Assembly: GCF_029892965.1 (NCBI RefSeq)
Contig: NZ_JARXWN010000010.1
Coordinates: forward strand, 1 to 64,000
Length of the DNA stretch: 64,000 nucleotides
Reading direction: 5' to 3'
Source: Dysgonomonas sp. PF1-14
Lineage (GTDB): Bacteria > Bacteroidota > Bacteroidia > Bacteroidales > Dysgonomonadaceae
Positions 52,842 through 61,484 of the stretch are shown in pieces. How positions within the stretch are numbered: the stretch's first letter is position 1; the number at the start of each line of letters is the position of its first letter. Below the pieces are notes generated by a model. That model saw only the letters and a list, made by a program, of their open reading frames with translations. It ran no database searches and had not been told where the DNA came from. A program made the translations under genes and the position numbers.

Positions 52842-52866
52842 GCCTATCGAATCGGGTGTTAATCTA
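52808..52866. repeat. 59-bp direct repeat, copy B
   Basis: This is the partner of 49687-49745 (52 of 59 positions identical, no gaps). It covers the leuB stop codon (52864-52866) and the operon terminator. Confidence 0.8.
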
Positions 52867-53934
52867 TCCCTTCACATAATTTACGAGCCAGTCACCTACC
52901 TCAGATGTAGAGTGTACTTTACCGTTTCGGAGCGAAATATCTTCGGTAACTACTCCCGCATCCATAGACGCGGCTACTGCCTGACGGATAAGTTCACCTT
53001 CCTCTTTCAGTTCGAAGGCATACTCGAACATCATGGCAGCCGAAAGCACCGTAGCAAGCGGATTAGCGATGTTCTTTCCTGCCGCTTGCGGATACGATCC
53101 ATGTATAGGCTCAAACACAGATGTGTGTATACCGATAGAAGCCGACGGCAACATACCAAGAGAACCTGTGATAACAGACGCCTCATCGGTAAGAATGTCT
53201 CCGAACAGATTTTCAGTTACCAAAACATCGAATCGCTTAGGCCATTGTATGATCTGCATTGCTGCATTGTCTACAAACATATACTCTGTTTCCACATCAG
53301 GATATTGTTTTTCCACTTCTTGTGCAACCTGTCGCCACAGGCGCGATGTAGCCAGCACATTGGCTTTATCCACTACTGTTACTTTCTTGCGGCGCATCTG
53401 CGCATATTTGTACGAAAGATGAAGGATACGTTCTACTTCTTCACGGGTATATACACAGGTGTCGTATGCTGTATCGCCGTCTTCGCTACGACCTTGCGGA
53501 CGTCCGAAATACATACCGCCTGTAAGTTCACGCACACACATAAAATCGGCTCCCTGTACCAAATCTTCGCGTAGCGGAGATTTGTGTATCAGTGATGGAA
53601 ATGTGCTTACAGGGCGAATATTGGCATACAGTCCCAGTTTCTTGCGCATAGCAAGTAGTCCCTGCTCTGGGCGCACTTTAGCCGAAGGATCGTTATCATA
53701 TTTAGGATCGCCGATAGCTCCAAAAAGAACTGCATCGGAAGTCATACACAACTCGTGCGTACCATCGGGATATGGGTTGCCTACCTGATCGATAGCCGAT
53801 GCGCCTACCAATCCATATTCATAAGAAAGCTCGTGTCCGAATTTTTCGCAAACGGCTTCGGTCACTCTCAATGCCTGCTCTATAATCTCAGGTCCGATCC
53901 CGTCACCGGGAAGTACAGCAATGTTTAATTTCAT
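52864..53934 (-). CDS. leuB: 3-isopropylmalate dehydrogenase
   Basis: A 356-residue NAD-dependent enzyme that oxidises and decarboxylates 3-isopropylmalate. Diagnostic are [11 protein letters not shown] (residues 7-17), a signature near residue 245 ([19 protein letters not shown]), and [21 protein letters not shown] near residue 275. It ends the leu operon, 83 bases after the cimA-like gene; a CCTCCCC hairpin lies in that gap. Related enzymes can also handle methylmalate in the citramalate route. Confidence 0.96.
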
Positions 53935-54017: not shown

Positions 54018-55529
54018 TTACATTTCTTCTATCATGTTCAGCATTTTCTCGGTCGCTTTTACAGCCGCTTCTGTCTGGTCGGCATCCAGTCCGCGAGTCT
54101 TGATAGTTTTCCCTTTAAACTCCCATGTAATCACTGTCTGAACCAACGCATCGGTACGTCCGCCCGGTGGTATAAATACGGCATAGTTAGTCAATGTAGG
54201 GGTAGGTTTACCCAATCGGGTATATATTTTGTACAAGGCTTTGGAAAATGCGTGGTACTGACCGTCGCCGGGTGCTGTCCATTCGTATTCTTCGCCGTTT
54301 ATTTCTATCCTTACCGTAGCTGTCGGGCGAAGACCTTTGGTGAGCAGGAATGCAAAGGACAATATCTTAATCCGTTTTTCCTTCTCATTGTTCTTCAATA
54401 CATCAGATATAATGTACGGTAAGTCTTCCTGCGTAATGATTTCCTTTTTGTCTCCCAACTCGATAACGCGGTTTGTTACCTTCATCATTTCAGTTTCGTC
54501 GAGTTCTATACCTAGAGCCTCAATATTCTTTCGGATATTGGATTTACCCGAAAGTTTACCCAAAGCATATTCTCTGACTCGTCCGAACCGCTCAGGGAAA
54601 AGATCATTGAAATAAAGGTTGTTCTTATTGTCTCCGTCAGCATGTATTCCCGCACACTGCGTAAACACATTATCACCTACAATTGGCTGATTGGCTGAGA
54701 TAATCTGTCCCGAATACGATTCTACAACACGGCTTACCTTGTTGATATTCTCTTCTTTTATAGAGGTCTTAATATTTAACTGATCATGAAAGACAGCAAC
54801 CACGCTCGCCATCGAGGCATTTCCGGCACGTTCGCCCAATCCGTTCATTGTCACATGCACACCCTTCACTCCTACTTCGGCCGCCACCATCGTGTTAGCT
54901 ACAGCCAAGTCATAATCGTTGTGCGCATGAAAATCGAAATGAAGCTCCGGATAACGGTTTATCATCCGGCGGCATGCCCGCCATACACTATGCGGATTAA
55001 GTATCCCCAGTGTATCAGGCAACATGAAACGTTTGATCGGCAGGTCTTTCAATCCGTCCATCATAGAGTAGACATAGTCTTCGGAATGTATAATACCGTT
55101 CGACCAGTCTTCGAGATATACATTGACTGTAATCCCCATTTCATGAGCAAGGTTTACTTCATACCTGATATCTTCGAGATGTTCTTCCGGCGTTTTCCGC
55201 AGTTGCTCGGTCACATGTTTATACGAACCTTTTGTTAGCAGATTTATAGTCTTACATCCGGCTTTCTTGATCCATTCCAGCGAAACGCCTTTATCTATAA
55301 AACCTAATATCTCTATTTTGTCGATATGCCCGGTAGATTTAGCCCATGCAGCTATCTTACTCACCGTATCGAATTCTCCATTCGACACACGCGCCGATGC
55401 TATCTCGATACGGTTTACCCCCAGATCGACCAGCAACAGGTGAGCTATACTCATTTTTTCCTGAGTAGAGAAAGAAACGCTGGACGTTTGCTCTCCATCT
55501 CTCAGGGTAGTATCCATTATTTCTATCAT
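54018..55529 (-). CDS. citramalate/2-isopropylmalate synthase-like enzyme
   Basis: A 503-residue HMGL-like enzyme distinct from the operon's leuA. The TIM barrel begins [21 protein letters not shown] with the catalytic and metal residues of the family. FHAHNDYDLAVANT holds the metal-binding HxH region near residue 200, and TMNGLGERAGNASM follows. The C-terminus is a LeuA-type allosteric domain. Position between leuD and leuB and a sequence unlike leuA suggest citramalate synthase (pyruvate plus acetyl-CoA, the first step of a threonine-independent isoleucine route). A second isopropylmalate synthase cannot be excluded. Confidence 0.85.
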   Translation of the reverse strand: MIEIMDTTLRDGEQTSSVSFSTQEKMSIAHLLLVDLGVNRIEIASARVSNGEFDTVSKIAAWAKSTGHIDKIEILGFIDKGVSLEWIKKAGCKTINLLTKGSYKHVTEQLRKTPEEHLEDIRYEVNLAHEMGITVNVYLEDWSNGIIHSEDYVYSMMDGLKDLPIKRFMLPDTLGILNPHSVWRACRRMINRYPELHFDFHAHNDYDLAVANTMVAAEVGVKGVHVTMNGLGERAGNASMASVVAVFHDQLNIKTSIKEENINKVSRVVESYSGQIISANQPIVGDNVFTQCAGIHADGDNKNNLYFNDLFPERFGRVREYALGKLSGKSNIRKNIEALGIELDETEMMKVTNRVIELGDKKEIITQEDLPYIISDVLKNNEKEKRIKILSFAFLLTKGLRPTATVRIEINGEEYEWTAPGDGQYHAFSKALYKIYTRLGKPTPTLTNYAVFIPPGGRTDALVQTVITWEFKGKTIKTRGLDADQTEAAVKATEKMLNMIEEM

Positions 55530-55551: not shown

Positions 55552-56481
55552 TCAAAAAATGTCTTTGATAAATTTATCTATCCTTGCAATAAAATTCTTA
55601 AAATTATACGTAACAGGCCCGTATCGTCCTCCATGTTCCGCACCTTCGACCACCCAGATATCTTTTTCAACATCTTCCGGCAGGAGATTATATATATCCT
55701 GACTCATAGACGGGAACGTCCTGTCATCTTTATCACCCACAATAAGGAAAGTGGGTTTATTAAATTCCGGAGCAATATAAACAGGCATCTGATGCGTTGG
55801 GAAATCCGTTGGAATTATCACTTCTTCATCTTTCTTATTTTGTACCTTTTTAATAACAGGCATTACTTCTTCGAAGGAGGAAGGAGTTGCAATACCAATA
55901 TAAGCACCAGTGAAAGCGTTATTGTAAGCAGCTATCATAGAGAGATAGCTGCCTGTAGACCACCCCATCAATATTATTTTAGAGCTATCAACAGTATCTT
56001 CTTTTGCTACTTTATTAATTACGGCGTCATAATCCCACAGCATTTCCGTATAACACATATAATTGGTATCCATAGGCCACACTGAACTTTCTCCGAAATC
56101 GCGCCAGTCGAATGTCACAACATTTATACCCCGCGTTGTCATTTCCTGTGCAAGGTGTAATTGTATCCATGACATATTTCCGGCATCCCCGTTACATATG
56201 ATCAAAGTAGGACGCTTCGTCTCATCCAGCACCTTATATTCTCTTTTTTTACTCTCATCCCATGCCCTTTCCAGCTCTTTCTCTGGCAAGTTATCCTGTG
56301 CAGGGAAAAACCATGTTTTGATTTTCAAACTGTCTTTTGTCGTAACATCGAGTTCTCTATAAATCAAACCTAGCTTCTCCGGATAAAAGCGATATTTCTT
56401 ATCCGGTTTGATTGCATTCAATGTGCAAAGTGTTCCGGATAGGATAAAGATTAATAATATAAGGACTGTTTTGAATTTCAT
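55552..56481 (-). CDS. exported alpha/beta-hydrolase inside the leu operon
   Basis: A 309-residue alpha/beta-hydrolase. Residues 1-22 form a signal-peptide-like hydrophobic segment (FKTVLILLIFILSGTLCTL); the Cys near position 19 could make it a lipoprotein, but the lipobox is poor. The nucleophile elbow is GWSTGS, the Asp lies in GDKDDRTFP and the His in EGAEHGG. It sits 10 bases after leuD and 22 bases before the cimA-like gene, so it is cotranscribed with leucine genes despite having no obvious pathway role. The substrate is unknown. Confidence 0.82.
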   Translation of the reverse strand: MKFKTVLILLIFILSGTLCTLNAIKPDKKYRFYPEKLGLIYRELDVTTKDSLKIKTWFFPAQDNLPEKELERAWDESKKREYKVLDETKRPTLIICNGDAGNMSWIQLHLAQEMTTRGINVVTFDWRDFGESSVWPMDTNYMCYTEMLWDYDAVINKVAKEDTVDSSKIILMGWSTGSYLSMIAAYNNAFTGAYIGIATPSSFEEVMPVIKKVQNKKDEEVIIPTDFPTHQMPVYIAPEFNKPTFLIVGDKDDRTFPSMSQDIYNLLPEDVEKDIWVVEGAEHGGRYGPVTYNFKNFIARIDKFIKDIF

Positions 56482-56491
56482 TACCTATATA

Positions 56492-57082
56492 TTAGTGAGA
56501 TGAATTAGCTTCGTATTTCTCTGTTAACTCTCTTTTAGAAAGCAGGTAGTCAATATCATCCAGCCCTTTAAGCAGACATTCTTTCTTATATGGATTGATC
56601 TCAAAATTTTCTGACTTGCCTGTTGCATTATTAGTTATTGTCTGCTTTTCCAGATCGATAGTCAATGTTGCTTTTGGGTCAGCATTTACACTGGCAAATA
56701 TTTCTGAAAGGAATTCAGGTGTAACGATAACAGGTAATACGCCATTATTCAATGCGTTGTTTCTGAAAATATCTGCAAAGAAACTCGAAACTACTGCCCG
56801 GAATCCATATCCTGCTACTGCCCATGCGGCATGCTCGCGGCTCGAACCGCTACCAAAATTCTTTCCTGCAACAAGAATTTGCCCGCTATACGTAGAATTG
56901 TTTAGTACGAAATCTGCTTTCGGGCTTCCGTCTTTGTTGTAACGCCAATCAGCAAAAAGATTATCTCCGAAACCGTTTTTATCAGTCGCTTTCAGGAAGC
57001 GTGCAGGTATTATCTGGTCTGTGTCCACATTCTCGATAGGTAGTGGAACGTATGTTGATGTAAGTGTTTGAAATTTTTCCAT
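56492..57082 (-). CDS. leuD: 3-isopropylmalate dehydratase small subunit
   Basis: A 196-residue swivel-domain subunit that pairs with LeuC to isomerise isopropylmalate, or methylmalate in the citramalate route. Diagnostic are [13 protein letters not shown] (residues 19-31), [16 protein letters not shown] near residue 73, and [13 protein letters not shown] near residue 106. The leuC-leuD gap of 116 bases contains CCTCCCC-type hairpins. Confidence 0.96.
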
Positions 57083-57198: not shown

Positions 57199-58593
57199 TT
57201 AGATATTACGGGGATCAGTTATTCGTCCAGTAATCGCCGCAGCCGCTGCCACTAATGGCCCTGCAAGAATGGTGCGTGCACCCGGTCCCTGACGTCCTTC
57301 GAAGTTACGGTTCGATGTAGATACTGCATATTTTCCGGCAGGCACTTTGTCATCATTCATCGCCAGACATGCCGAGCATCCCGGTTGACGAAGTTCAAAA
57401 CCTGCATCTTTCAATATTTGATCTATTCCTTCTGCCTGTATTTGGTCTACTACTTTGTGGCTTCCCGGAACAAGCCATGCAATCACATTATCGGCTTTTT
57501 TCTTACCTTTCACAAAGTTGGCAAATGCACGAAAATCCTCTATACGCCCGTTTGTACAGCTACCTAAGAATACATAGTCTATCTGTTTACCTTCTACCTT
57601 CTCACCCGGATTGAATCCCATATAGTCCATTGATTTCTGGAACGATATGCGTCCGGCTTCATCTACCTGATCAAGAGTAGGTATATTTTCATTGATGCCC
57701 ATTCCCATACCCGGATTGGTACCGTAGGTGATCATCGGCTGAATGTCAGCTGCATCGAAAGTCAGCTCTTTATCGAATTTTGCTCCTTCATCGGTTTTCA
57801 GAGTTTTCCAGTAAGCAAGTGCCTTATCCCACTCTTCACCTTTTGGTGCGAACTCACGACCATTCACATAGGTGAAAGTAGTTTCATCGGGGGCAACAAG
57901 GCCACCACGAGCACCCATTTCTATACTCAGATTACAAAGCGTCATGCGTTCTTCCATCGACATATTGCGGATAGCCTCTCCTGCATATTCTACAAAATAG
58001 CCTGTTGCGCCACCTGTGGTCAATTTAGAGATCATATACAATGCCAAGTCTTTTGCTGTAACGCCTTCATTCAGTTTTCCGTTGAATGTAATACGCATGG
58101 TCTTAGGGCGGGATTGCAATACACATTGTGATGCAAGTACCATTTCGACCTCACTGGTTCCAATACCGAATGCAATAGCTCCAAATGCACCATGAGTAGA
58201 TGTATGGCTATCGCCACAAACGATGGTCATACCCGGTTGGGTAAATCCGTTTTCAGGGCCGATGATGTGAACCACACCGTTTTTCTGATGCCCAAGCGGA
58301 TAATACAGATCGATACCAAACTCTTTTGCATTTTTAGAAAGAGTATCCAACTGATTCTTTGAAATTGGATCTGCTACCGGCTTATCCTGATTGATAGTCG
58401 GCGTATTGTGGTCGGCTGTGATAGTCGTTTTCTCGGGACGGAATACTTTAAGACCTCTTGCTCGCAATCCGTTGAAAGCCTGTGGGCTCGTCACTTCGTG
58501 GCAGAAGTGGCGGTCTATGTATAACTGTGTCGGACCGTTTTCTACGGATGATACGACGTGCGCATCCCAGATTTTGTCGAATAATGTTTTCAT
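57199..58593 (-). CDS. leuC: 3-isopropylmalate dehydratase large subunit
   Basis: A 464-residue aconitase-family subunit with a 4Fe-4S cluster. Diagnostic are [16 protein letters not shown] (near residue 25), [24 protein letters not shown] near residue 130, and the cluster cysteines in [13 protein letters not shown] near residue 346 and GCSACLAMN near residue 407. It works with LeuD. The gap to leuA (58594-58709) is CTAG-rich. Confidence 0.96.
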
Positions 58594-58709: not shown

Positions 58710-60200
58710 TTACTTAACAAACTTGTTTACTGCATTTATAAAGGCTTCGACCGAAGCAACCACTATATCGGTATGTGCCGAGAAACCATAGTAATTTTGT
58801 CCTTCATGTGAAACCTGCATATGTACTTTTCCTGTATCGTCACTTCCTTTGTTGATAGCCTGGATAAGGAACTCCTCAATCACCATCTGTCGTTTTATAA
58901 TTTCTTTCACTGCTTTGATAGCTGCATCCACAGGGCCGTTACCGGTTGCTGACGCTTGGAACTTTTCTCCTGCAATATCAAGACCTACAACCCCGATACA
59001 TTTCACACCTTTACCCGAAGTGGTCTGCATAAAGTCTAGCTTGATACGGTGCATTTTGTCTGTTTCTTTTCCAGCCAGAATCAAAACATCTTCATCTGTG
59101 ATGTCTTTCTTACGATCGGCTAGTTCAAGAAAACGTTGGTAGATTTCAGCAAGATTATCATCATTCACTTCTATACCAAGCAATGACAATCTGTTCTTCA
59201 ATGCTGCACGTCCGCTGCGGGCAGTCAATACGATAGCGCTATCATCGATACCCACTTCTTTAGGGTCGATGATTTCATATGTAGACAGATTCTTTAAAAC
59301 ACCATCCTGATGAATACCCGACGAGTGAGCAAAAGCATTACGCCCTACGATAGCCTTATTGGGTTGTACAGGCATATTCATCAGACTCGATACCATACGG
59401 CTTACCGGATATATTTTTTGTGTATTGATATTCGTTTCTATATCCAGTTCTTTGTGGCTCTTTATTGCCATCACCACTTCTTCGAGTGATGTATTTCCGG
59501 CACGCTCTCCTATTCCGTTGATTGTAACTTCTACCTGACGGGCACCGTTAAGAACTCCCATGATAGAGTTTGCTGTTGCCATACCTAAATCCTGATGACA
59601 ATGTGTAGAAAGTATCGCATTCTTCATATCCACATGGTCTATCAGATATTTTATCTTTGCTCCGTATTCGGTAGGAAGACAATAGCCTGTTGTATCGGGA
59701 ATATTTACGACTGTTGCTCCGGCATTTACCACAGCCTGAACCACGCGGGCAAGATATTCATTATCGGTACGACCTGCGTCTTCAGCGTAAAACTCCACAT
59801 CTTCTACATAACGCTTTGCATATTTTACACATGCAGCTGCACGTTCCAGTATTTCTTCCTGAGTAGAATTGAACTTATATTTGATATGGTATTCTGATGT
59901 TCCGATTCCGGTGTGTATACGCTTGTTCTTAGCATATTTCAATGCTTCAGCTGCTACTTCGATATCTTTTTCTACGGCACGTGTCAAAGCACATATAGTT
60001 GGCCAAGTTACAGCTTTTGATATTTCGACTACCGAATTGAAGTCTCCCGGACTAGATACAGGAAAACCGGCTTCGATAACGTCAACACCGAGCGATTCGA
60101 GGGCTTTGGCTACTTCTATTTTCTCAATTGTGTTCAACTGGCAACCCGGTACCTGCTCTCCATCTCTTAGTGTTGTGTCAAAAATAAATAACTTGTCCAT
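58710..60200 (-). CDS. leuA: 2-isopropylmalate synthase
   Basis: A 496-residue HMGL-family enzyme for the committed leucine step (2-ketoisovalerate plus acetyl-CoA). Signatures are [18 protein letters not shown] (residues 5-22), [15 protein letters not shown] near residue 200, and [14 protein letters not shown]. The C-terminal allosteric domain (from about 385) ends [12 protein letters not shown]. It is the first structural gene of the operon and is preceded by a leader with promoter, leader peptide and attenuator at 60307-60499. Confidence 0.96.
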
Positions 60201-60230
60201 ATTTTTTTGTATTTTATAGTTTATAAGGAT

Positions 60231-60273
60231 TCTAGTTTACTAGAGTTCTAGAATTAAAATCTAGTAAACTAGA
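60231..60273. repeat. CTAG-rich 14-bp inverted repeat in the leu leader
   Basis: TCTAGTTTACTAGA (60231-60244) and TCTAGTAAACTAGA (60260-60273) form a perfect 14-bp stem between the attenuator and leuA, with five CTAG tetranucleotides within about 45 bases. A related CTAG-rich stretch lies behind leuA (about 58612-58695). The role is unknown. Confidence 0.65.
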
Positions 60274-60306
60274 ACTCTTGTATTCTAAAAACTCTCTTTT
60301 ATTCTC

Positions 60307-60345
60307 AAAAAAAAACCTTTCTCATCTTTTACAGAGTGAGAAAGG
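60307..60345 (-). terminator. attenuator terminator of the leu operon
   Basis: On the minus strand CCTTTCTCA (60345-60337) and TGAGAAAGG (60324-60316) form a perfect 9-bp stem with a 12-nt loop, followed by nine T (60315-60307). It lies 39 bases beyond the leader-peptide stop and 106 bases before leuA. CTCACTC (60340-60334), in its 5' arm and loop, can pair instead with GGGTGAG (60390-60384) at the leader stop, which would block the terminator. Confidence 0.88.
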
Positions 60346-60384
60346 CTCAAGTTTATTCTTTATGATTATACTACATAGCAATGC

Positions 60385-60444
60385 TCACCCTAAATTTCTC
60401 CAGAGGATAATGAGTGAACTAATAATAATACTATGTGCTAACAT
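60385..60444 (-). CDS. leu operon leader peptide (attenuation)
   Basis: A 19-residue open frame, MLAHSIIISSLIILWRNLG, runs from ATG at 60444 to TGA at 60385-60387. Five Ile and four Leu make up nearly half of it. It lies between the promoter (60469-60499) and the attenuator (60307-60345). A ribosome slowed at the Ile-Ile-Ile or Leu-Ile-Ile-Leu codons would cover TTCACTC (60418-60412), freeing GGGTGAG (60390-60384) to pair with CTCACTC of the terminator arm. This is the classical peptide-attenuation layout; function is inferred. Confidence 0.85.
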   Translation of the reverse strand: MLAHSIIISSLIILWRNLG

Positions 60445-60468
60445 TGTAATCTTTTCTTTATTGGTTGA

Positions 60469-60499
60469 CAAAGTTATTTCATTTTTTCAGAAATACAAA
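60469..60499 (-). promoter_or_regulatory. leu operon promoter
   Basis: On the minus strand TTTG (60499-60496), a 19-base spacer and TAACTTTG (60476-60469) match the Bacteroidetes -33/-7 consensus. The leader-peptide ATG lies 24 bases downstream. Confidence 0.75.
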
Positions 60500-60617
60500 T
60501 AAAAAGACATATTATTTGATTTAATCTAACATTTTTACATTTCGACATCATCAAAGAATAGAGTTTCAATATACTAAGATTCTTTTATGTATTATATGGC
60601 AAATCTGATTTAATTTA

Positions 60618-60625
60618 TACCTTTG
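60618..60625 (+). promoter_or_regulatory. -7 box for the 60669 lipoprotein gene
   Basis: TACCTTTG matches TAnnTTTG, 43 bases before the ATG at 60669. Confidence 0.5.
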
Positions 60626-60668
60626 CCGCCGATAAATACTAAATCAAACTAAACAAGACAATCAAAAA

Positions 60669-61484
60669 ATGAAAACATTCTACAAAATTATGCCGCTTAT
60701 AGTGCTGGCAACAATCTTCTCGCTAGGATTCTCTTCGTGTAGCGATGATGATGACAATAATGGAAATACGGATAATAAAAAGTATGTTCCATCTCTAATC
60801 ACCATCGATCCAGGAACAGCAGGCGAACAAACTCTTACTATAACCTACGATAAAGATTATCGTGTGGCTTCTATAGTATGTTTTACTCCTGATGAAAATG
60901 AAACACAAACGGACATTTTTGAATATAACACAACTGGCAATTTAGTAAAGTGGACACAGAAATCTAGTGTTGGCAATGTTGACGATAAAGATCCTTATGC
61001 TATCACCTATACATATAAAACTGATTCCATAATTCAGAAAGATAGCCATGATACTTACGGTTGGGCTGTGAACTCAGCTAATTTTGCAGAGAAAGTAGTT
61101 CGGTATTATGAACTTCCTGAATACAAGGACGAGACTGTATTCGAATATGATACTAACAAGCGCTTGGTGAAAGAAACAAATACGTCTGTTAGCGGTACTG
61201 GCACCAATATATATTATAATTCGTATGAATACGACAATAAAACCGGTATCAGCACACATGTTAATATAACAATGTGGCAGGCTGTACTGCTAAATCTAAA
61301 TGATGACTTATATAGCTTCCTTCTGGCTAAAACAAATAATATAGCAAAAATATCATCGGAAGAAGATGGTGATGTTGATACTATGACATACGAATATGAT
61401 GAAAACGGATACCCGACCAAAATGACGGCCAAAGATGCTGATGAAACAACTATCTGGAAATTCGAATACACCGAAGTAAAATAA
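60669..61484 (+). CDS. lipoprotein of unknown function, DUF4595-like repeats
   Basis: A 271-residue predicted lipoprotein. The signal peptide ends GFSSC (Cys about 24), followed by SDDDDNNGN, a linker typical of Bacteroidetes surface lipoproteins. The mature part repeats strands of the form YDKDYRVASI, YNTTGNLVKW, YDTNKRLVKE and YDENGYPTKM, which recall DUF4595 or YD-repeat folds. Acidic tracts near the lipid anchor can act as export signals to the cell surface. It is monocistronic, with a terminator behind it. Confidence 0.75.
   Translation: MKTFYKIMPLIVLATIFSLGFSSCSDDDDNNGNTDNKKYVPSLITIDPGTAGEQTLTITYDKDYRVASIVCFTPDENETQTDIFEYNTTGNLVKWTQKSSVGNVDDKDPYAITYTYKTDSIIQKDSHDTYGWAVNSANFAEKVVRYYELPEYKDETVFEYDTNKRLVKETNTSVSGTGTNIYYNSYEYDNKTGISTHVNITMWQAVLLNLNDDLYSFLLAKTNNIAKISSEEDGDVDTMTYEYDENGYPTKMTAKDADETTIWKFEYTEVK

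Follow-up and report, generated by a model that had tools for sequence, protein, structure and literature searches.

A probable leader-peptide attenuator upstream of leuA in Dysgonomonas and related Bacteroidales, with isoleucine codons that track operon content

Leader-peptide attenuators of the leuL/ilvL type are known from Proteobacteria and Actinobacteria, where codons for the cognate amino acids, mutually exclusive helices, and a terminator precede the operon. A survey of attenuators from 2004 reportedly names Bacteroidetes/Chlorobi. Within this phylum, Bacteroid-trp (RF01692) is a Bacteroidete tryptophan peptide leader RNA (PMC2864571), clues to leader peptides before amino acid operons have been presented for Flavobacterium psychrophilum (PMC9723704), and short open reading frames (ORFs) occur in the long 5' untranslated regions of Bacteroides thetaiotaomicron, the mRNAs of Bacteroidetes being without Shine-Dalgarno sequences (PMC7366714). 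The F. psychrophilum leaders share phylum and proposed mechanism with the locus described here, but come from another class, and the main text names neither leuA nor ilv (PMC9723704). B. thetaiotaomicron belongs to the same order, but BT_4401, the case presented there, encodes a hypothetical protein, and leucine goes unmentioned in the main text (PMC7366714). The literature searched, supplements and most subscription papers aside, offered no account of a Bacteroidales leu leader (PMC2864571, PMC7366714, PMC9723704, PMC2965389, PMC4833913, PMC9026213, PMC8305728).

The window (the whole 64,000-nucleotide stretch of Dysgonomonas sp. PF1-14 DNA analyzed) very probably contains, to judge from sequence, a ribosome-mediated transcription attenuator of a leuA-leuC-leuD-hydrolase-cimA-leuB operon, tuned to isoleucine and leucine. 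A first-pass annotation had described a promoter TTTG-N19-TAACTTTG, a 19-codon frame, and a 9-bp terminator stem with nine T, and had counted five Ile and four Leu codons in the small frame. All of these elements are present exactly where it had placed them, 5' of leuA on the minus strand, and the codon count was confirmed in MLAHSIIISSLIILWRNLG. The parts of the leader are as follows.

60499-60496 (TTTG) and 60476-60469 (TAACTTTG), minus strand: promoter-like motif, from sequence
60385..60444, minus strand: leader ORF of 19 codons, MLAHSIIISSLIILWRNLG plus stop TGA, from sequence and the Ile/Leu-rich ORF in relatives
60429..60436, minus strand: segment 1, outer arm ACATAGTA of the 1:2 hairpin, from folding and an own-versus-swapped pairing test
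60412..60418, minus strand: segment 1, inner arm TTCACTC, from folding and the 1:2 hairpin in the consensus fold for 24 leaders of the Dysgonomonas cluster
60384..60390, minus strand: segment 2, GGGTGAG, spanning the stop codon, with segment 1 or 3 as partner and covarying with segment 3
60373..60380, minus strand: outer 3' arm TGCTATGT of the 1:2 hairpin, from folding and consensus folds
60334..60340, minus strand: segment 3, CTCACTC, the antiterminator partner, in the 5' arm and loop of the terminator, from the swap test, covariation, and folding
60316..60345, minus strand: intrinsic terminator hairpin (segments 3:4) with a 9-bp perfect stem, from sequence, covariation, and folding
60307..60315, minus strand: nine T directly after the terminator hairpin, from sequence

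We take the promoter-like motif to be of the Bacteroidetes type, from its consensus, and the start of the leader transcript is predicted from this motif alone. Of 130 leaders, 74 have a TAnnTTTG sequence no more than 75 nt 5' of their ATG, where shuffles average 12.9. The terminator (arms CCTTTCTCA, 60345-60337, and TGAGAAAGG, 60324-60316, minus strand) folds at -15.9 kcal/mol (z -4.6 versus shuffles), and folding of the whole leader gives z -2.5. A simple promoter/terminator scan listed neither the leader promoter motif nor the terminator, the latter because its 12-nt loop exceeds the 8-nt limit of the scan. Between the end of the T run and the leuA start, 106 nt apart, lies a long imperfect inverted repeat (60213-60291; 35-nt arms, 80% complementary), which is absent at the same site in the closest relative (L005) and resembles a stretch at G000:C7:62357-62426; the repeat could be a small mobile palindrome. 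On the other side of the leader, a divergent gene (60669-61484) likely encodes a lipoprotein, as suggested by its signal-like start, and its only Pfam match, DUF4595, is sub-threshold. A plasmid search gave no match.

Downstream of the leader, the operon runs in the order leuA, leuC, leuD, hydrolase, cimA-like, and leuB.

58710..60200, minus strand: leuA, 2-isopropylmalate synthase (NF002086 at 719 bits and TIGR00973 at 648.8 bits, each exceeding its cut-off)
57199..58593, minus strand: leuC (TIGR00170, over cut-off)
56492..57082, minus strand: leuD (TIGR00171, over cut-off)
55552..56481, minus strand: alpha/beta hydrolase, between leuD and cimA (general hydrolase families only)
54018..55529, minus strand: cimA-like citramalate synthase of the Leptospira type (best NCBIfam model NF042433, and PDB 3ble)
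52864..53934, minus strand: leuB (TIGR00169, over cut-off)

The CimA-like protein scores 656 bits against NF042433, under the cut-off of 950, with the next best family at 329, and its best solved relative is the Leptospira citramalate synthase (PDB 3ble). LeuC, LeuD, and LeuB additionally convert citramalate to 2-oxobutyrate, a precursor of isoleucine. Because these three enzymes can act in leucine synthesis as well as in the CimA route, a leader that senses both amino acids would suit the operon, whose genes for making them score over cut-off (leuA, leuC, leuD, and leuB) or have a best match under cut-off (cimA-like). The genome also encodes threonine ammonia-lyase (ilvA), and cimA would therefore be a second route to isoleucine; the idea that it is the sole route was dropped for the same reason.

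To compare leuA leaders, upstream regions were taken from the 90 of 101 genomes in the window's family with leuA at E ≤1e-50, and the best 80 of a capped list of leuA loci from named genomes were added (the closest leuA among the named matches listed, from Dysgonomonas sp. Marseille-P4361, is 94% identical). The 169 leuA loci gave 155 distinct upstream regions, and the 152 of at least 200 nt were scored under a uniform rule: an ATG ORF of 13-40 codons in which Ile, Leu, or Val make up 7 or more of 12 residues, and then a terminator. Such an ORF and terminator precede leuA in 128 of the 152 regions, compared with none of 152 when the reverse strand is scored and none in each of five shuffled sets, and hence the leader is not a product of chance; the remaining 24 loci have no leader detectable under this rule. 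For an order-level set, 32 of 79 leuA loci scored and 47 had no detectable leader, which is no fair estimate, since its 80 loci were chosen from 114 genomes with leuA and weighted towards those without linked cimA. Some of the misses arise where leuA lies inside a larger operon. For example, ilvD, ilvB, ilvN, ilvC, leuA, leuC, leuD, cimA, and leuB stand in a row in G241 with a leader at the front, and model R1 has matches 4-6 kb upstream of leuA in G131, G137, G335, and G341. R1 matched 117 of 295 genomes in the order (E ≤0.01) and 42 of 295 in the class (E ≤0.001), although these figures are not a count of leu leaders, as some matches are ilv leaders (e.g., in the window's own genome and in G354) and some are the same hairpin on the opposite strand.

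The regular succession of ORF and terminator also bears on whether the leader might act on translation instead, by controlling access to the leuA start. As Bacteroidetes mRNAs lack Shine-Dalgarno sequences (PMC7366714), start-site access could matter without them, yet a strong terminator whose T run ends 106 nt before the leuA start, and which follows the ORF in the same 128 of 152 relatives, makes translational attenuation extremely unlikely.

The RNA pairings were assessed with 131 leaders that have an ATG ORF, grouped into 39 clusters that are partly dependent on one another. Segments 2 and 3 from the same leader pair better than combinations swapped between clades in 34 of the 39 (p 6e-7), and the 5' half of the ORF does so with its own segment 2 and spacer (1:2) in 33 of 39 (p 6e-8), whereas pairing the ORF to segment 3 (1:3) as a control showed no effect (20 of 39, p 0.21). 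Against dinucleotide shuffles of one leader per cluster, the native pairing exceeded the shuffled mean in 39/39 clusters for 2:3 and 33/39 for 1:2. Covariation was counted in alignment A1, which holds 58 leaders. The 2:3 helix has 89.4% of cells paired and 37 two-sided cells versus 11.8 when shuffled (reached by 0 of 500 shuffles), although only five pairs show any two-sided change at all, a count that is not unusual (reached by 131 of 500). For the terminator, 93.9% of cells are paired, with 34 two-sided cells versus 10.3 (0 of 500). Within the terminator loop, the bases of segment 3, dispensable for the terminator itself, follow segment 2 across clades: Dysgonomonas has CTCACTC with GGGTGAG, Bacteroides and Phocaeicola have CTCACTTCC with GGAAGTGAG, Proteiniphilum has TCTCACCC with GGGTGAGA, and a Tannerella has CTCGCTT with AAGCGAG. 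The comparison of relatives that the first-pass annotation had proposed thus came out in its favor, with the small frame widely kept and both the antiterminator and terminator stems covarying, including the pairing of GGGTGAG with CTCACTC and the self-pairing of the terminator. As a separate observation, the terminator arm CCTTTCTCAC (A1 columns 157-166) is more conserved than a terminator alone needs. We take it to resemble the 3' end of 16S rRNA; the extra conservation may reflect only its double pairing duty.

The first helix required some revision. It had been given as TTCACTC with GGGTGAG, and the TTCACTC arm as such is not kept in clades beyond the Dysgonomonas cluster. RNAalifold consensus folds place a long 1:2 hairpin in each of the three largest clusters (24, 51, and 9 sequences), with 95.0, 92.4, and 86.2% of cells paired and 6, 25, and 11 two-sided cells, respectively, for structures predicted from the same sequences on which they were scored. 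In the window sequence alone, the 1:2 stretch folds no better than shuffles (z 0.66; z -0.40). Three mutually exclusive helices are supported by swaps and covariation, as originally proposed, but the first is predicted to be larger, adding ACATAGTA-TGCTATGT and joining the 5' half of the ORF to the stretch around and beyond its stop codon. When the RNA ends before segment 4, the best predicted fold is 2:3, and at equilibrium the full leader favors the terminator even if the coding part is blocked; the switch would therefore have to be kinetic, operating during RNA synthesis. In attenuators elsewhere, the switch likewise acts while the RNA is being made.

The locus accordingly combines a short ORF with clustered cognate codons, a terminator before the first gene, an antiterminator exclusive with that terminator, and a 1:2 hairpin that hides segment 2 (based on clade consensus and swaps). 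From this arrangement, we infer stalling, termination, and induction as follows. Under a shortage of charged tRNA-Ile or tRNA-Leu, a ribosome would stall in the Ile/Leu codons and keep segment 1 from pairing, so that 2:3 would form before segment 4 is made and the polymerase would read on. With isoleucine and leucine plentiful, the ribosome would reach the stop codon and cover segment 2, allowing the 3:4 terminator to form, and without translation 1:2 would form, again leading to termination.

If the Ile codons are due to cimA, leaders of operons without cimA should lack Ile. We scored cimA as linked when it lies on the contig of leuA within ~6 kb, and found at least three Ile codons in 70 of 72 cimA-linked leaders compared with 2 of 11 unlinked ones (Fisher p 9e-9, a value that ignores phylogeny). 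One set of 50 genomes contributed 41 linked and three unlinked or cimA-less leaders (L048, L059, and L110), with six dropped as undecidable in linkage (L050, L067, L071, L078, L081, and L093). The order set of 80 loci, which took in nearly all loci without linked cimA, gave 41 candidate leaders under a looser rule, comprising 27 linked, eight unlinked, and six dropped (L263, L264, and L265 at contig ends; L240 and L252, unconvincing by eye; and L269, the same region as L083), and four window-family loci were added as linked (L004, L007, L013, and L146). L068 was taken as linked on the ground that its leuD is divided between two contig ends, and in L109 a contig end truncates cimA. Three unlinked leaders (L233, L238, and L253) fall below the 7 of 12 branched-chain residues of the uniform rule, and without them 6 of 8 unlinked leaders have fewer than three Ile codons. 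The 11 also include an identical pair (L259/L262) and a near-identical pair (L048/L059), and collapsing these leaves 7 of 9 with fewer than three. Absence of cimA was called at E limits of 1e-120 or 1e-30 in genomes that include drafts, and L262 (G262) was scored unlinked on only 4.1 kb of downstream contig.

Individual operons illustrate the pattern. A leuA-leuC-leuD-leuB operon without cimA occurs in G124, G322, G108, and G441, with leader peptides such as MNTTLLSLSLTSGLTLSK, and the leader of leuA-leuC-leuD in G400 and G408 has one Ile and six Leu. In G354, leuA has no other leu gene within 11.5 kb and its leader is MQSNYLLPFLLWTLLLNNLREKHGCL, and the separate ilv-leuC-leuD-cimA-leuB operon has two tandem leaders with terminators (L315 11837 and 11970, minus strand) rich in Ile, Val, and Leu. 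Where ilv and leu genes are joined in G241, the leader MTLFASLLLVVIIILVVNH contains all three residues. There are exceptions: an unlinked leader in G104 still has Ile, with cimA elsewhere in the genome; G340 (an 87% complete draft) has Ile in a leader with its terminator far upstream and no cimA found; and L067, from a draft genome with no cimA found, also has Ile. Overall, conservation, helix covariation, and codons that track the operon all fit the reading first put forward, of ribosome attenuation tuned to Ile and Leu together.

Codon choice in the leaders is also distinctive. CTC accounts for 53% of leader Leu codons in the Dysgonomonas cluster, compared with 9.5% in the window's long ORFs, and CTA for about half in two other large clusters, compared with 7.5%. 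These are the two rarest Leu codons in the window's long ORFs, and together they make up 45% of leader Leu codons when one leader per cluster is counted. Among leader Ile codons, the share of ATT is 73 to 88% across the three largest clusters versus 27% in the window. The background throughout is the window's long ORFs, some of which may not be genes. The ATT preference is relevant to a further explanation, namely that the leader responds to an RNA-binding protein, uncharged tRNA, or a metabolite, its ORF being translated only incidentally. Conservation of the hairpins, which is unusually strong in the sequence of the terminator, is what this explanation would predict, but it would account neither for mostly ATT Ile codons nor for codon content that shifts with operon content. 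Moreover, no Rfam family reached its gathering score in the window, leu leader included, and no T-box or other Rfam riboswitch was matched by a covariance model at that score. Relaxing the limit to E 10 gave 18 matches in 59900-60800, including PyrR site and rnk leader, all of them far under gathering; neither RF01692 nor a T-box was among these. Direct action of such a ligand on the leader is thus very improbable.

Further leaders occur in the same genome.

L213 13655-13813, minus strand: ilv operon leader MTNCFLHIVLVIDILLVGQNK with terminator AGCCTTTCTCA...TGAGAAAGGCT and T run, from sequence
L331 2075-2197, minus strand: his operon leader MNKTMHHHHFILLPCGK, containing HHHH, with a terminator before hisG, from sequence

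The ilv leader, the second match of R1 in this genome (E 3e-8), precedes ilvD, ilvB, and ilvC and carries Ile, Val, and Leu codons; the small-subunit gene ilvN of this operon was assigned solely from its position and appearance. The ilv operon also includes an acyl-ACP thioesterase gene. A trp leader, MNFLLTNTFWWWHSQLKRS (containing WWW), lies upstream of trpB and trpE, the latter with a score under cut-off, and matches RF01692 at 53.5 bits against a gathering score of 49. The fourth R1 match (L215, E 0.41) was rejected as a leader, being an ordinary terminator after a gene.

That such leaders carry the amino acids of their own operons (ilv, trp, and his) also weighs on the possibility that the small ORF encodes a functional hydrophobic micropeptide and the terminator merely sets a fixed level of expression. 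The leuA leader peptide is hydrophobic and conserved within clades, and its in-frame pN/pS is mildly low in three clusters (0.60, 0.76, and 0.47), as expected of a functional product, although one off-frame value in the largest cluster is just as low (0.78). However, the length, end, and stop position of the peptide vary across relatives while the RNA helices stay, its Ile content tracks cimA in the operon, and segment 2 covaries with bases of the terminator loop, leaving a micropeptide a highly implausible explanation in comparison with an attenuator that reads the codons.

Because RF01692 matches the trp leader of this genome, the phylum already has a recognized peptide leader, which amends the first-pass view of peptide attenuation as best known from Proteobacteria and Actinobacteria. 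RF01692 shares the phylum and, by Rfam's description, the peptide-leader character, and the leu, trp, and ilv leaders have in common a TACAT/ATGTA-type first helix (judged by eye); the leu leader differs in being unmatched by RF01692, in its Ile/Leu codons, and in preceding leuA. Its likeness to the leuL/ilvL type lies in its proposed way of working; it differs in its promoter type, in combining Ile and Leu, and in the presence of cimA in the operon. Peptide attenuation in the phylum is therefore known, and what is new is the leu leader together with a natural experiment in codons and operons.

We lean, with limited confidence, towards a related family of Bacteroidales attenuators (leu, ilv, trp, and his) whose codons are rewritten as operons gain and lose genes. 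If so, loss or relocation of cimA would drop Ile from the leu leader and fusion with ilv would add Val, such that the leader would report which amino acids an operon makes, in a phylum without Shine-Dalgarno initiation. The rule that leader codons follow operon content is testable and could aid pathway annotation, and it opens the question of how stalling-based attenuation works in bacteria with mRNAs lacking Shine-Dalgarno sequences. The leuA leader occurs in many Bacteroidales and has no Rfam family at curated threshold, and these results suggest that ribosome-mediated attenuation may be a general control of amino acid operons in this order.
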